Source of the DNA: Eubacteriaceae bacterium
GTDB lineage: Bacteria > Bacillota > Clostridia > Eubacteriales > Alkalibacteraceae
DNA length: 44,055 nt
Assembly (NCBI GenBank): GCA_013335935.1
Contig: JAAXUP010000010.1
Location: 1 to 44,055, forward strand
Direction of reading: 5' to 3'
In this document: piece by piece, positions 16,137-27,111 of the stretch
How the letters are laid out: every line of letters begins with the position of its first letter
Position numbering within the stretch: position 1 is the first letter of the stretch
Translations under genes and position numbers: made by a program
The notes under the pieces: generated by a model
Told to the model about the DNA's origin: nothing
The model's database searches: none
What the model saw: only the letters and a program-made list of their open reading frames with translations

Positions 16137-17147
16137 ATGACAATTTTAATAACTGGCGGTGCAGGCTATATAGGCAGCCACACTTGTGTTGAGTTGCTGG
16201 AAGCAGGTTACGAGGTCATAATTGCAGATAATTATTCCAACAGCAAGCCGGTAGTTCTTGACAGGATCACCAGCATCACCGGAAAGAAGTTTAAATTCTA
16301 TGAAGCAGACATACTCGATACGGTCGCGATGGATAAAATATTTTCTGAGAACAGGATCGAAGCGGTCGTCCATTTTGCTGGCTCCAAGGCAGTTGGGGAA
16401 TCTGTGGAGAAGCCCCTTATGTACTACCACAACAACGTTACAGGAACAATAGAGCTGTTAAGAGTGATGGCGAAGCATAAGGTGAAGAGGATCGTATTCA
16501 GTTCTTCAGCGACAGTCTATGGATTGCCGGAAAGCGTGCCGATATCTGAAGATTTTCCTTTGAGTGCCACAAATCCCTATGGCAGAACTAAGCTTATGAT
16601 CGAGGAAATCCTAAGGGATCTGTTTGTATCGGACAAAGATTGGAGCATGGCGCTCCTTCGCTACTTCAATCCCATAGGCGCCCATCAAAGCGGAACCATG
16701 GGAGAGGATCCAAACGGCATTCCCAACAACCTCATGCCATTTATCACCCAGGTAGCCATAGGAAAACTTGAGAAACTAAATGTCTTCGGCAAGGATTACG
16801 ATACCGTTGACGGCACAGGGGTAAGGGATTACATTCATGTGGTGGATCTTGCCAAGGGGCACGTTAAAGCCCTGGAGAAAATATTTTCAGAAAAAGGGGC
16901 AGAAAGCTATAATCTGGGAACGGGAAAAGGTTACAGCGTACTTGAAATTGTCAAAGCATTTGAAGAAGCGTCAGGGATAGAAATACCCTATGTGATCACA
17001 GAAAGAAGAGCTGGAGACATTGCAAAATGCTATTCTGATCCGGATAAAGCGTTCAGGGAGCTTGGCTGGAAGGCAGAGAAGGGCATACAGGAAATGTGCA
17101 GGGATTCATGGAACTGGCAGCAGAAAAATCCGAAAGGGTTTGAATAA
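16137..17147 (+). CDS. galE: UDP-glucose 4-epimerase (GalE)
   Basis: Interconverts UDP-glucose and UDP-galactose (in some members also the N-acetyl forms), supplying precursors for the polymer. It is a 336-residue SDR with [21 protein letters not shown] at the N terminus, [24 protein letters not shown], and NPYGRTK with the Tyr-x3-Lys pair. [20 protein letters not shown] is typical of GalE. It starts 28 nt after copy 1 of the dehydratase and ends at a terminator, so it closes the second unit. Which substrate form is preferred cannot be judged here. Confidence 0.95.
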
Positions 17148-22057: not shown

Positions 22058-22450
22058 ATGAAAAGATATTTCATATTATTATGTTTTGTATTTATAGCGG
22101 TTATGCTGTTGGGGATGGTTTCCGCAAAAAAAAGTCTCTATACGGAGGCTCAGATCAATAAATATAATCAGGAAAATAAGGTCGATATTATAGCAAATAA
22201 AAATACCGACTCGGTGGCACCTCAAATCATTGTAGTTTACCCAGATAATCTGGATAACGGCCAGACGGTTGCCGCTGACAAAGTTTACCTTAAGTTTCTT
22301 GACAACATTGAAGTCGCCCAGGCTTTTTTAAATGATCAGCAAATCTCGCTGGATTCTGTTGTAGTCACATCCCTTGGAATCAGTAAAATTTTAATAGTAG
22401 ACAGCGCTGGGAATAAAGCAGAATTTTCTTTCACCATCGTACCGAGATAA
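22058..22450 (+). CDS. Small exported protein with one Ig-like domain
   Basis: I do not recognise a specific family. The 130-residue product starts with a basic end and hydrophobic core (MKRYFILLCFVFIAVMLLGM), a signal peptide or membrane anchor. The rest reads as a short beta-sandwich: VAPQIIVVYPDNLDNGQTV, VYLKFLDNIEVAQAFLNDQQ and KILIVDSAGNKAEFSFTIVP resemble bacterial Ig-like domains. It is the last gene of the polysaccharide region, 34 nt after the kinase and before a hairpin, so it may assist polymer assembly; that is only inferred from position. Confidence 0.7.
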   Translation: MKRYFILLCFVFIAVMLLGMVSAKKSLYTEAQINKYNQENKVDIIANKNTDSVAPQIIVVYPDNLDNGQTVAADKVYLKFLDNIEVAQAFLNDQQISLDSVVVTSLGISKILIVDSAGNKAEFSFTIVPR

Positions 22451-22461
22451 TTACCCTGAAT

Positions 22462-22503
22462 AAAGAATCTGTCACAAAAAAATGGCAGATTCTTTAGAAT
22501 TTT
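22462..22503 (+). terminator. Likely terminator ending the polysaccharide locus
   Basis: AAAGAATCTGTCA (22462-22474) pairs with TGGCAGATTCTTT (22483-22495), 13 bp with one G-U. The tail AGAATTTT is only moderately T-rich. Confidence 0.65.
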
Positions 22504-22678
22504 GAAACCCTTGTCCTGAAAGGGTTCTGACCGTGACAAATCATGACAAGTATTGCATGATTTCAGTGAAAAAAAATAAAATAGTTGACATCAAATAGTT
22601 TATAATTATTATGCAGGGGAATATAATAGGTACATAAAAGATTAGGACATAACCAATAATAATAGGTACAAATTGAAA

Positions 22679-22753
22679 AAGGCAAACCTGTTGAAAGGCA
22701 GGGACGCAAAGCATGAAGTCTACGGCGATTAGCTATGACGGTTCGGCTGCCAA
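22679..22753 (+). promoter_or_regulatory. c-di-GMP-I (GEMM-I) riboswitch 1
   Basis: The conserved GEMM-I core is present: GGCAAACC, a stem with GAAA tetraloop, then GGGACGCAAAGC, followed by a second arm. The 3' side reads GGTTCGGCTGCC, so the closing helix GGCA (22681-22684) / TGCC (22748-22751) is longer than usual. The 3' strand of this helix is also the 5' arm of the terminator at 22745. Binding of c-di-GMP should therefore favour read-through into the gene at 22814. Confidence 0.87.
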
Positions 22754-22779
22754 ACTTTTTTTAGTTCGGCAGCTTTTTT
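22745..22779 (+). terminator. Riboswitch-controlled terminator before the InlB-repeat gene
   Basis: GCTGCCAAACT (22746-22756) pairs with AGTTCGGCAGC (22763-22773) with one mismatch, followed by six T's. It shares bases 22746-22751 with the riboswitch closing helix, so the two structures exclude each other. Confidence 0.85.
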
Positions 22780-22813
22780 GTTACTCTTTTTTATGAGATA
22801 GGGGGGATTCATT

Positions 22814-25639
22814 ATGAAAAAAACAAAATTACAGCGCATCACATCAATGCTGATGGTCATGCTAATGTTGATGACCATGATGCCAAGCAGTGCATTCACA
22901 CCTGCGGTCAATGCTGCTGTTGGTGAAACTGTCACATTGACACTTAGAAACAATGATGATGGGAATGTAAAAATCGATGGCGTGACCTACACTCACGGGG
23001 GAGTGCTGGTACTTCCAACGGGAAGCACAGTTACCATCGAGGCAGTACCTGTAAAACCCGGGAAGGTATTCAAGAATTGGGTAAGCAGTATCAAATCAAT
23101 TGATAAGGAAAATACAAATCCAATCACCTTTACCATCAATGAAGATTCATTTATTAACACAAAGTTTGGCTTTAGACCTGGAACAACCTTCTATACAGTG
23201 ACTTTCAATCCAGGAGCAAATGGAGTATTGACTCTCACTGATTTGGCAACGCAGGAGGTTCTGCTAGGTGGGAGCGCAACAGATCCTGGAATCACACCAA
23301 ACTACGGCTGGCAGTTCGCAGGCTGGGACAAAGGCTTTACCAATGTCCAGTCGAATCTGACGGTAAATGCCACCTACACAAAAGTAAATTATACAGTTGC
23401 CTTTGAAAGCAACGGAGGAACCGACATTGGAAGTATCACCGCACCTTATGATACTTTGATAACAGCACCTGCTCCACCTGAAAAAATCGGATACGATTTT
23501 GCCGGCTGGTTTAAGGATGCAGGATTGTCAGATGACTGGTTATTCACGTCAGATAAAGTCGCTGGAGATACCACACTGTATGCCATGTGGACAATAAATC
23601 AATATACAGTAGGTTTTGAATCAAACGGAGGATCAGCTGTTGACAGCATAACTACAAATTACAACACCACCATTATCAAACCTACAGACCCAACTAAATC
23701 CGGATACACCTTTGCTGGTTGGTATAAGGATGCCGCGTTGACAGATGACTGGTTATTCGGTACTGACCAAGTGACTGAAAATACCACACTCTATGCAGCT
23801 TGGGAAATTAATCAATATGCAGTAAGCTTTGACGCAGCAGGAGGATCTCCGGAACCTGGGGATCAGCTCCTTAATTACGGCAGCAATGTAACAGTGCCGA
23901 CAGTACCTACAAAAACAGGATACACCTTCGACGGCTGGTTCACAGAAGGCGGAGTGGAATGGAATTTTGCCACAGACACCGTTCCAGCAGACAATTTGGA
24001 ACTGACTGCATACTGGACAATAAATCAGTATACTGCAAGCTTTGAAGCCAACGGCGGAACACCGGCACCTATAAGCCAGACAATCGACTTTAACAGCCTG
24101 GTAGTGAAACCTGCAATTGATCCTGAAAAAGACGGTTATACTTTCACCGGCTGGTTCAAAAATGAAGCAGGGACAATCCCCTGGGATTTCACCACCGATT
24201 TGTTACCGGCATCAGACGTAACGATCTATGCAGGTTGGGCGATACAGCAAAGGACAATAACTTTCATTTCAAACGGAGGCACTTCGGTTGGAACAATCTC
24301 CGTGGACTATAATTCTATAGTAACAGCACCTCCGATACCGACAAAAGAAGGGTACACTTTCGCCGGATGGTTTACAGAAGATCTGACAAATGCGTATACC
24401 TTCGGTGGTAACCTGACAGAAAGCATCACACTTTACGCTAAATGGGTCATACAGGGAAGAACAATAACTTTCGAAACTAATGGGGGTTCAACCGTAGCAC
24501 CAATCACCGTTGAGTTTAATACACCTGCAGAACCACCAACGGAACCAACAAAAGAAGGCTATGACTTCTCGGGCTGGTTTACAGATACCGGTCTGACCGA
24601 TGAATACACCTTCGAAGGCAACCTGACAACAGATATGACCTTATACGCTGCTTGGGATGCCCAGGACAGAACCATAACCTTTGATTCTGCCGGCGGCTCA
24701 GCGGTAGCACCTGTCACAGTAAAATTCGACACAATACCTTCTGCACCCGCGACTCCAGTTAAAACAGGATCAACCTTCGCTGGGTGGTATGAGGAGGAAG
24801 CAAACGAACCTTTTGATTTCGCTGCTCCTTTGACAGAAAACAAAAATTTGATAGCAAGATGGATAAGCAATGTATACATAGTGACCTTCGATTCAGGTGA
24901 GGGTACATTCTTCGGCGAAGCTGCTGACGTTATCACACAGCCTGTGATCCACGGAGGTACTGCAGTTCCCCCAACAGGTCTGATCATAGCACCTGCAGGC
25001 TATCACTTCACAGAATGGTCGCCTTCAGGAATGGCTGGAATCACAGGGGCAGTGACGTATGTGGCACTATTCGAAAAAGATGCGGTCATTGTTCCGGTAA
25101 CACCTGTTACAACAGAACCAACTCCAAACCCGACAGATCCAGTTACATTGAATGAAGAACAAGTCATTACACCGACAATTACAACTGTTGATGAGGAAAT
25201 CAGCACCCCTGAAAAAGAAACAACTGTGAAAGAAGTAATACCGGAAAAAACCCCTCTATCAGCTCCGGTCAGGGAGGGTATCGACTGGATGTGGTGGCTA
25301 CTGCTACTGCTGCCGTTCCTGTTCTTCTTACTGGCTTGGTGGAATCGCGTTAAGCCAATCGTTGAAGGCGTTGCGGACAACGGAGACGGAACCTTCACGG
25401 TAACCTGGGGTTATAACAACAGAAAGATCAAAGACGTAAAATACGACGAAGACGATTCTGAACTAAACGTCCTTGCCGGAACAATCATCAGAGGTGAACA
25501 GCCTCCAGTAGAATTCGAAAGAGGAAGACATGAGAATGTATTTACGACGATCGTAAATAAAGACGCAAAAATCGAATGGAACATCAAGAGAAAGAAAGCA
25601 TTGGCAGACGTCATTGAACAACTTAAAAAGAATCAGTAG
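22814..25639 (+). CDS. Exported surface protein with InlB-type B repeats and a C-terminal membrane segment
   Basis: 941 residues. A signal peptide (ends near AVNAAVG) is followed by two divergent beta-repeats, then seven clear InlB_B/Listeria-Bacteroides repeats of about 70 residues at bases 23390-24874 (residues 193-687), each with FxxNGG, GYTFAGWF and TLYAxW, and a divergent eighth. A Thr/Pro-rich linker leads to a very hydrophobic Trp-rich segment (WMWWLLLLLPFLFFLLAWW, from residue 825) and a tail of about 95 residues. There is no LPXTG motif. Part of the tail (VADNGDGTFTVTWGYNN, GEQPPVEFERGRHENVF) resembles a domain I know from extracellular proteins. Likely an adhesin. It follows c-di-GMP riboswitch 1. 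Confidence 0.9.
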   Translation: MKKTKLQRITSMLMVMLMLMTMMPSSAFTPAVNAAVGETVTLTLRNNDDGNVKIDGVTYTHGGVLVLPTGSTVTIEAVPVKPGKVFKNWVSSIKSIDKENTNPITFTINEDSFINTKFGFRPGTTFYTVTFNPGANGVLTLTDLATQEVLLGGSATDPGITPNYGWQFAGWDKGFTNVQSNLTVNATYTKVNYTVAFESNGGTDIGSITAPYDTLITAPAPPEKIGYDFAGWFKDAGLSDDWLFTSDKVAGDTTLYAMWTINQYTVGFESNGGSAVDSITTNYNTTIIKPTDPTKSGYTFAGWYKDAALTDDWLFGTDQVTENTTLYAAWEINQYAVSFDAAGGSPEPGDQLLNYGSNVTVPTVPTKTGYTFDGWFTEGGVEWNFATDTVPADNLELTAYWTINQYTASFEANGGTPAPISQTIDFNSLVVKPAIDPEKDGYTFTGWFKNEAGTIPWDFTTDLLPASDVTIYAGWAIQQRTITFISNGGTSVGTISVDYNSIVTAPPIPTKEGYTFAGWFTEDLTNAYTFGGNLTESITLYAKWVIQGRTITFETNGGSTVAPITVEFNTPAEPPTEPTKEGYDFSGWFTDTGLTDEYTFEGNLTTDMTLYAAWDAQDRTITFDSAGGSAVAPVTVKFDTIPSAPATPVKTGSTFAGWYEEEANEPFDFAAPLTENKNLIARWISNVYIVTFDSGEGTFFGEAADVITQPVIHGGTAVPPTGLIIAPAGYHFTEWSPSGMAGITGAVTYVALFEKDAVIVPVTPVTTEPTPNPTDPVTLNEEQVITPTITTVDEEISTPEKETTVKEVIPEKTPLSAPVREGIDWMWWLLLLLPFLFFLLAWWNRVKPIVEGVADNGDGTFTVTWGYNNRKIKDVKYDEDDSELNVLAGTIIRGEQPPVEFERGRHENVFTTIVNKDAKIEWNIKRKKALADVIEQLKKNQ
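23390..24874 (+). repeat. Seven tandem InlB-type B repeats
   Basis: Seven units of about 69-74 codons with a conserved start (YTVxFESNGG or RTITFxxNGG), centre (GYTFAGWF) and end (TLYAxW). Copies diverge in DNA, so this is an old protein repeat rather than a recent tandem duplication. Confidence 0.9.
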
Positions 25640-25708
25640 TCGAAAGAATATTTGTTGATTATTTTTAACAGATATGATAAACTTCAATTAAATCAATAGA
25701 TTATTTAG

Positions 25709-25801
25709 CTTTTCAGCGATAATGGCAAACCTGTCGAAAGACAGGGACGCAAAGCCAAGGGCCTTCCCTGAATTTTCAGGATGGCAGCCGGTTACCGAAA
25801 G
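25709..25801 (+). promoter_or_regulatory. c-di-GMP-I (GEMM-I) riboswitch 2
   Basis: Complete GEMM-I core: ATGGCAAACCTGTC, GAAA tetraloop, GGGACGCAAAGCC, a GGGCCTTCCCTGA arm with TTTT loop, and GGCAGCCGGTTACC. CTTTTC (25709-25714) can extend the closing helix by pairing with GAAAG (25797-25801). It is followed by AGAGGAG and then a strong terminator at 25822, with no start codon between. A near copy lies 176 nt downstream. Confidence 0.93.
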
Positions 25802-25821
25802 AGGAGATTATAAGTCAATTT

Positions 25822-25852
25822 AGACCTCCAATTTCAATTGGAGGTCTTTTTT
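25822..25852 (+). terminator. Intrinsic terminator between riboswitches 2 and 3
   Basis: AGACCTCCAAT pairs with ATTGGAGGTCT (11 bp, 4 nt loop), followed by six T's. It probably forms the expression platform of riboswitch 2; GAGG at 25801-25804 could compete for CCTC in its 5' arm. Confidence 0.9.
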
Positions 25853-25884
25853 CTTCTCCAGCAATCTACATTTTTCTGACAAAG

Positions 25885-25976
25885 CTTTTCAGCGATAAAT
25901 GGCAAACCTGTCGAAAGACAGGGACGCAAAGCCAAGGGCCTTCCCTTATTTAGGATGGCAGCCGGTTACCGAAAGG
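25885..25976 (+). promoter_or_regulatory. c-di-GMP-I (GEMM-I) riboswitch 3, overlapping the ribosome binding site
   Basis: Almost identical to riboswitch 2 in the core; the loop of the second arm is shorter (TTATTTA). CTTTTC (25885-25890) can pair with GAAAGG (25971-25976), which overlaps the AAGGAG Shine-Dalgarno sequence (25973-25978) of the gene at 25989. Control of translation, with ligand hiding the site, is the simplest reading, but the sign is not proven. Confidence 0.92.
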
Positions 25977-25988
25977 AGAGTTTTTCTT

Positions 25989-26924
25989 TTGAAAAAAATC
26001 AGATCTATTCTTGCAGCAGTAATTATCCTGGCAGCAGTGACTTCCAGCGTTTTTGCCGGCTCGTTCTCAATAAATAAAAATGAAAACCTCATAAATGATG
26101 AATTGATCCCACTAAGCAGCGGAGAAGATAAATTGTATGCAATGCTTGATAATACCCTGAGCATGGATGCAGGCAGAAACATTTCTACCACTGCAGGAAA
26201 TATACAGATCAATGAAAGTCTGATCAGTCAGGGTGCAATAGGCATCAAATTTGATTACAGCGGAGATAAAAAAATAAAAATAGCCATCTCCAATAAAAAC
26301 GACACTGTGTATTACAATTATCTCACCAATGGAAGCTATGAAGTATTTCCTCTCCAATTCGGAAACGGAAGCTATGACATCAGCATCATGGAAAATTTGG
26401 AAGGCAACAAGTACACGGTTTTAAGCAGCTCAGTCGTTGAGCTTGATATTCCAGACCAGAATGTAGTCTTCTTGAATTCCACACAGACCGTGAAATGGTC
26501 TGGCGGGGATGAAAGTTCAACTTTGGCATTGGAAATTACAAAAAACTCTAAAACGGATACAGATAAGGTAAAAGCAATATACGCCTATATTATTGATAAA
26601 ATTGATTATGACTACAGTAAAATCGAAGGGATTGATTACACCTACATCCCGGATAACAATGCCACACTGGATTCCGGAAAAGGGATCTGCTACGATTATG
26701 CAGCACTCATGGCCTCCATGCTTCGAAGTGTGGGAGTGCCTGTAAAACTTGTCAAAGGTTATGGAGATTTTCAGCCGGAAACCTACCATGCCTGGAATGA
26801 AGTTCTCGTAGGGGGAGAATGGGTAACAATCGATACAACCTACGATGCTCAGCTTTACAGCGATGGTAAAAAAGTAGATATGGTAAAAGAAAGCAGTGCC
26901 TATGCTATCGTAAATGTTTATTGA
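25989..26924 (+). CDS. Secreted transglutaminase-like protein
   Basis: 311-residue protein with a signal peptide (KKIRSILAAVIILAAVTSSVFAG) and a C-terminal transglutaminase-like domain (Pfam Transglut_core type). The Cys-His-Asp triad is visible: C234 in GKGICYDYAALMASML, H267 in YHAWNEV and D282 in VTIDTTYD. Such domains may cross-link proteins or act as proteases. The N-terminal 170 residues look beta-rich and are unfamiliar. TTG 25989 is chosen because it gives the signal peptide and has AAGGAG before it; an upstream in-frame ATG at 25899 would translate the riboswitch. It follows the adhesin gene and shares its c-di-GMP control type. Confidence 0.9.
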   Translation: MKKIRSILAAVIILAAVTSSVFAGSFSINKNENLINDELIPLSSGEDKLYAMLDNTLSMDAGRNISTTAGNIQINESLISQGAIGIKFDYSGDKKIKIAISNKNDTVYYNYLTNGSYEVFPLQFGNGSYDISIMENLEGNKYTVLSSSVVELDIPDQNVVFLNSTQTVKWSGGDESSTLALEITKNSKTDTDKVKAIYAYIIDKIDYDYSKIEGIDYTYIPDNNATLDSGKGICYDYAALMASMLRSVGVPVKLVKGYGDFQPETYHAWNEVLVGGEWVTIDTTYDAQLYSDGKKVDMVKESSAYAIVNVY

Positions 26925-26994
26925 GCCGTTGATGCATCCGCTATAATTACTTATTAGCGATCATAATAATCCTTGTGAAAAGGTGGGAATCCCC

Positions 26995-27026
26995 AAAAGT
27001 TAATGTTTAACCGCATTAACTTTTTC
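26995..27026 (+). terminator. Intrinsic terminator after the transglutaminase-like gene
   Basis: AAAAGTTAATG (26995-27005) pairs with CATTAACTTTT (27014-27024); five T's end the hairpin. Confidence 0.85.
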
Positions 27027-27083
27027 CTATTTAGAGATTATTGAATTTTAATCCTTCCTTAATTTAATCAGTCATGGGAGTTG

Positions 27084-27092
27084 TGTTATAAT
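27084..27092 (+). promoter_or_regulatory. Extended -10 promoter of the cardiolipin synthase gene
   Basis: TGTTATAAT, an extended -10 box, 20 nt before the start codon. The -35 is weak (TTTAAT at 27063-27068, 18 nt spacer). Confidence 0.6.
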
Positions 27093-27111
27093 TAACTGAG
27101 GAGGGTTGAAC

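Follow-up and report, generated by a model that had tools for sequence, protein, structure and literature searches.

Tandem c-di-GMP-I riboswitches with predicted transcriptional and translational platforms upstream of a secreted transglutaminase-like gene in a Eubacteriaceae bacterium

The window, the whole 44,055-nucleotide stretch of contig JAAXUP010000010.1 that was analysed, was scanned with cmscan against all Rfam families. Three c-di-GMP-I matches were returned, all on the + strand, one upstream of a gene for a large surface protein and two in the leader of the following gene, which encodes a transglutaminase-like protein. The features of this region are:

22671-22754, + strand: third c-di-GMP-I aptamer, predicted ON (RF01051, 73.5 bits; overlapped by a terminator)
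22747-22772, + strand: terminator of the third riboswitch (−10.4 kcal/mol), its 5' arm overlapping the 3' end of the aptamer
22814-25639, + strand: surface protein of 941 aa, bearing InlB/List-Bact repeats, a signal peptide and a membrane segment near the C-terminus (PF09479, 2.8e-128; TIGR02543; translation)
25709-25714, + strand: 5' strand of aptamer 1 P1, CUUUUC (6 of 6 standard pairs with GAGGAG, 25801-25806)
25714-25799, + strand: c-di-GMP-I aptamer 1 (RF01051, cmscan 82.1 bits, E 8.6e-15)
25797-25835, + strand: predicted antiterminator of three helices, GAAA/UUUC, GGAG/CUCC and GUC/GAC (−9.1 kcal/mol)
25822-25852, + strand: intrinsic terminator, 11-pair stem AGACCTCCAATTTCAATTGGAGGTCT (25822-25847) and T-run (about −16 kcal/mol)
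25881-25890, + strand: 5' strand of aptamer 2 P1, AAAGCUUUUC (10 pairs with GGAGAGUUUU, 25975-25984; −9.2 kcal/mol)
25891-25974, + strand: c-di-GMP-I aptamer 2 (RF03167, 62.5 bits, E 1.5e-12; RF01051, 72.4 bits)
25975-25984, + strand: Shine-Dalgarno sequence GGAGAG and U-run, forming the 3' strand of aptamer 2 P1 (overlap conserved in nine orthologue leaders)
25989-26924, + strand: transglutaminase-like protein of 311 aa, secreted, starting at TTG (PF01841, 2.6e-24; Cys234/His267/Asp282)

A first-pass annotation, made from the letters of the sequence, had proposed two c-di-GMP-I riboswitches in tandem and suggested a scan with the GEMM-I covariance model. On that scan both scored above the RF01051 gathering threshold of 35 bits (82.1 and 72.4 bits), as did the aptamer at 22671-22754 (73.5 bits), which that annotation does not contain. 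One further copy is present in the host genome, giving four in all; it lies at positions 16578-16661 of another contig (locus L071, G000:C33) upstream of a 151-aa ORF. The near-identity of the tandem copies, said to differ mainly in one loop, was borne out (90% identity over the compared stretch; most of the 10 columns that differ belong to the P3 loop); their spacing, given as 176 nt, is 177 nt from core to core, with 91 nt between the Rfam boundaries.

Aptamer 2 was labelled c-di-GMP-I-GGC (RF03167) through clan competition. In the cmscan alignment its core reads GACGCAAAG rather than the GGC consensus GACGCGAAG, and the core is therefore that of canonical c-di-GMP-I. The diagnostic G that replaces the first A of GCAAAG is absent, the sequence at the RF03167 consensus GACGCGAAgCc being GACGCAAAGCC, and the GGC variant was ruled out for lack of this marker base, even with an RF03167 score still above threshold. 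The specificity position, which we take to be the one preceding the GC pair in the model by analogy with the Vc2 structure, is G and not A in all three aptamers (UGGCAAACC in both tandem copies, AGGCAAACC in the third). G or A at this position separates c-di-GMP from c-AMP-GMP aptamers (PMC9481103); by this base the c-AMP-GMP subtype is excluded for all three, and the tandem aptamers would be expected to bind c-di-GMP. The second messenger is probably both made and degraded in the host, since the genome encodes 8 GGDEF and 4 HD_5 domains; no EAL domain was matched in the genome, and breakdown may rest on the four HD_5 (HD-GYP type) domains.

The gene downstream of the tandem encodes a member of the transglutaminase-like superfamily (Transglut_core PF01841, 86 bits against a cut-off of 23) with a signal-peptide-like N-terminus, and the Cys-His-Asp triad (C234, H267 and D282) is invariant in an alignment of seven homologues. 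The reading frame (25899-25988) stays open upstream across almost the whole of aptamer 2, back to an ATG at 25899; in homologues the coding sequence begins at the counterpart of 25989, and this opening is therefore probably due to chance.

As the first-pass annotation had claimed, aptamer 1 is followed by a strong terminator with no start before it: the stem at 25822-25847 runs into TTTTT, and no ORF bearing a Shine-Dalgarno sequence lies between the two. In a consensus scan of 22400-27110 this was the only 11-pair terminator-like site and the strongest on the + strand. The predicted antiterminator is mutually exclusive both with the terminator and with aptamer 1 P1, with which it has bases 25801-25806 in common; its stability of −9.1 kcal/mol compares with a mean of −4.0 kcal/mol in shuffled spacers (p 0.022). 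Nascent RNAs ending at 25836-25840 have the antiterminator form as their minimum free energy structure, and with the 3' end at 25836 the P1 state is less favourable by about 5.7 kcal/mol, a deficit that ligand binding would have to cover. Once completed, the terminator (about −16 kcal/mol) exceeds the antiterminator in stability, and control would therefore have to be kinetic; kinetic antitermination is the weakest step of the model set out below, and the hairpin may instead be constitutive with some leak. A search for + strand promoters gave none with a score of 9/12 or more immediately upstream of aptamer 1, and no promoter-like site on that strand between the terminator and the transglutaminase gene. 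Spacers between paired aptamers, here and in related loci, were also read by eye, and no conserved small ORF was seen in them (e.g. TTG TAA in G004).

No terminator follows aptamer 2. Its P1 instead contains the Shine-Dalgarno sequence, with GGAG at 25975-25978 lying 10 nt before the TTG at 25989, in agreement with the earlier description of this aptamer as running into the ribosome binding site. The P1 duplex is the strongest among 20 Shine-Dalgarno-type aptamers compared, and each of the nine transglutaminase leaders compared, which range from Paenibacillus to the host's order (Eubacteriales), has a P1 that extends through the Shine-Dalgarno sequence. Across these nine leaders the mean duplex energy is −8.2 kcal/mol, against −6.9 kcal/mol when the partners are permuted (p 0.005) and −4.1 kcal/mol when the 5' strands are shuffled. 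The same excess is found in broader sets of 20 Shine-Dalgarno-type (p 0.0015) and 15 U-run-type aptamers (p 0.00015), significance that kinship among the sequences can inflate in all of these permutation tests. A stricter test that allows no gaps leaves less of an excess over permutation (Shine-Dalgarno-type p 0.025, U-run-type p 0.002), and in it P1 register +1 pairs as well as register 0. Binding of c-di-GMP to c-di-GMP-I aptamers takes place at the P1/P2/P3 junction and stabilizes P1. With the Shine-Dalgarno sequence inside P1, translational OFF is therefore predicted. Against this, in equilibrium folds the second Shine-Dalgarno sequence is largely paired with or without an aptamer constraint, through a hairpin specific to the window (GAAAGGAG/UUUUUCUUUU).

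The aptamers, the terminator, the position of the Shine-Dalgarno sequence and the conserved complementarity of P1 to it can all be read from the DNA itself, and on them we base a reading that we consider probable: the leader is a bi-mechanism tandem, in which two c-di-GMP-I riboswitches act independently and in series, each of them most likely an OFF switch. In aptamer 1, c-di-GMP would stabilize P1 (25709-25714 with 25801-25806); formation of P1 would take GGAG and the neighbouring GAAA from the nascent antiterminator, allowing the terminator to form at 25822-25852 and transcription to stop. Without ligand the antiterminator would form first and some polymerases would pass. In aptamer 2, c-di-GMP would stabilize P1 (25881-25890 with 25975-25984) and bury the whole Shine-Dalgarno sequence, leaving even full-length mRNA untranslated when c-di-GMP is high. 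The enzyme would then be made mainly at low c-di-GMP, with a response predicted to be steeper than that of a single switch. Judged by sequence, two complete riboswitches for the same ligand do lie in one leader, with a transcriptional and then a translational platform, and the earlier proposal that a single gene is gated twice in this order fits the terminator after aptamer 1 and the Shine-Dalgarno sequence inside aptamer 2 P1. As to direction, the logic of P1 gives OFF for both, and equilibrium folds do not settle the sign.

Close orthologues of the enzyme (47-57% identity) were found in three genomes of the same family (G001, G004 and G005); a related-locus search seeded with the enzyme yielded four loci. 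In all three genomes a c-di-GMP-I pair lies directly upstream, with aptamer 2 located 14-15 nt from the start codon. Distant homologues in G010, G003, a Syntrophomonadaceae MAG, Paenibacillus harenae and P. oralis have a single aptamer right before the Shine-Dalgarno sequence. The first-pass annotation had taken the two copies for a fairly recent duplication. A recent origin in the host lineage was ruled out by the presence of the pair at the orthologous gene in the three relatives, and by this distribution the pair is older than the genus. The likeness of the copies would be better explained by later homogenization: in the window, P3 of aptamer 2 looks like that of the relatives' first aptamers (CUUCCC...GGAUG) and not like that of their second ones, as would fit an old pair in which one copy was overwritten by gene conversion or copied anew. 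The simplest history would begin with a single translational riboswitch, to which an upstream aptamer was added in the host's family. The spacer between aptamers is 91 nt in the window compared with 31-43 nt in the relatives, and where these have a U-run directly after aptamer 1 the window has a discrete hairpin.

This last difference bears on an alternative that we regard as unlikely, in which only riboswitch 2 regulates and the hairpin at 25822-25852 terminates for the most part constitutively, stopping transcripts that come from the surface-protein gene, the transglutaminase being expressed through leak or from an unrecognized promoter. The relatives have a divergent upstream gene and lack a discrete hairpin between the aptamers, which speaks for this alternative, and the terminator does outcompete the antiterminator at equilibrium. 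With no promoter-like site between terminator and gene on the + strand, however, the gene would be silent if termination were fully constitutive, and the antiterminator overlaps P1 as the platform of an OFF switch should.

Less likely still is that both switches are ON, the CUUCCC of unliganded P3 (about 25763-25768 in aptamer 1) pairing with the purines that follow P1 (GAGGAG or GGAGAG) until the ligand frees them. Bacillus thuringiensis c-di-GMP-I tandems are indeed ON (PMC4759541), and aptamer 1 of G005 has a perfect CTTCCCC/GGGGAAG hairpin followed by T6. The complementarity is imperfect in the window, however, and the relatives' second aptamers lack it (CCUAAACC, CCUUAACC, CCUACCCC), whereas P1/Shine-Dalgarno complementarity is present in nine of nine leaders; a CUUCCC/purine stem, found in aptamer 1 of G005 and not conserved in second aptamers, was accordingly rejected as a common ON mechanism. 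That the tandem is a redundant relic of duplication with one non-functional copy is highly improbable: one aptamer does suffice in Paenibacillus, Syntrophomonadaceae, G010 and G003, but here both copies score strongly with intact cores, and the pair is kept wherever a close orthologue was found in the family, in four members if the window is counted.

In Eubacteriales, 24 arrays were compared, comprising the window, the three family members and 20 from the best listed matches, several of them orthologous, so that the sample is not random. In half of the arrays (12 of 24) every aptamer is followed by a terminator, except in one triple array, whose final aptamer has none. In 10 of the 24, P1 of an upstream copy is followed immediately by a U-run, and the final aptamer lies at the Shine-Dalgarno sequence; one of the remaining arrays is ambiguous, and the window has its discrete terminator followed by a Shine-Dalgarno-type aptamer. 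The mixed design is thus not peculiar to this locus, and the counts (10 of 24 examined, and the window) suggest that mixed arrays are common in the host's order, where P1 followed by a U-run would itself serve to terminate transcription. Arrays of two to four c-di-GMP-I aptamers were seen at L080, L082, L083, L086, L087, L091 and L092, with P1 leading straight into a U-run in an upstream copy and into a Shine-Dalgarno sequence in the last; the four of these that were checked stand before pectate-lyase-like secreted proteins.

The arrangement had been thought undescribed, a view that the literature does not support. Tandem c-di-GMP-I riboswitches before COG1305 (yebA) transglutaminases in Bacillota, 94% of them doublets and 6% triplets, were tabulated in a 2025 survey that separates tandem from adjacent aptamers by the terminator after the first (PMC12452182). 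Those tandems and the window have in common a twofold ligand class, the gene family and the broad host taxon; an assignment of the second platform to translation, as in our reading, was not found in that survey. Mixed same-ligand tandems had already been named bi-mechanism in a 2022 review, with SAM examples only (SAM-II/SAM-V and mixed SAM-II doublets); the same review lists 347 c-di-GMP-I doublets solely as pseudo-cooperative and states that platforms were not comprehensively evaluated (PMC9481103). Like the SAM-II/SAM-V tandems, the window has a terminator after the first riboswitch and the second at the ribosome binding site, both for one ligand, which here is c-di-GMP instead of SAM. The measured Bc3-4-5 triple tandem of B. 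thuringiensis likewise consists of near-identical c-di-GMP-I riboswitches in series, for which a more digital response is expected; it comprises three transcriptional ON switches, whereas the window has one transcriptional and one translational switch, predicted OFF (PMC4759541). In Bc1, both regulatory levels lie downstream of a c-di-GMP-I aptamer as they do here, but a single aptamer serves two terminators in an incoherent arrangement that is unresponsive in vivo, in contrast to two aptamers with one platform each (PMC11218506). No published assignment of a c-di-GMP-I pair to the bi-mechanism class was found, nor any relevant work on c-di-GMP riboswitches in Acetobacterium. The locus thus adds a good case to a type of control already known, and does not constitute a new type.

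The riboswitch at 22671-22754, upstream of the surface-protein gene, is preceded by a good promoter-like site at 22585-22612. The 5' arm of its terminator shares bases with the aptamer, namely the final pairs of P3 and the binding-site residues on the 3' side, and ligand binding should therefore prevent termination, giving an ON switch. In G001 and G005 the riboswitch of the orthologous gene for the surface protein is followed by the same type of hairpin; in the relatives the surface-protein and enzyme genes stand at separate loci. With this switch ON and the tandem OFF, surface protein and enzyme would be inversely regulated by c-di-GMP, and it is hypothesized that the enzyme acts on the 941-aa protein. 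In Clostridioides difficile, PPEP-1 is under a class I OFF riboswitch and the adhesins CD2831 and CD3246 are under class II ON riboswitches (PMC11477304). The window would resemble that system in setting a secreted enzyme against surface proteins through c-di-GMP riboswitches, and would differ in having a transglutaminase fold in place of a metalloprotease, class I on both sides and a putative substrate relation. We tentatively propose, as a possibility that is still doubtful, that class I riboswitches of opposite sign control these adjacent genes, the InlB-repeat protein ON and a secreted enzyme that processes or releases surface proteins OFF twice, in transcription and in translation, as a circuit of the PPEP-1 or LapG kind with a different enzyme.

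With this locus a bi-mechanism tandem is supported by sequence for c-di-GMP-I as well, where the 2022 review has SAM only (PMC9481103), and the conserved overlap of P1 and the Shine-Dalgarno sequence in nine transglutaminase leaders provides a testable rule for the sign of the switch. If the riboswitch at 22671 is ON as predicted, the two genes would form a compact c-di-GMP circuit with which the organism could both show and remove a surface protein.
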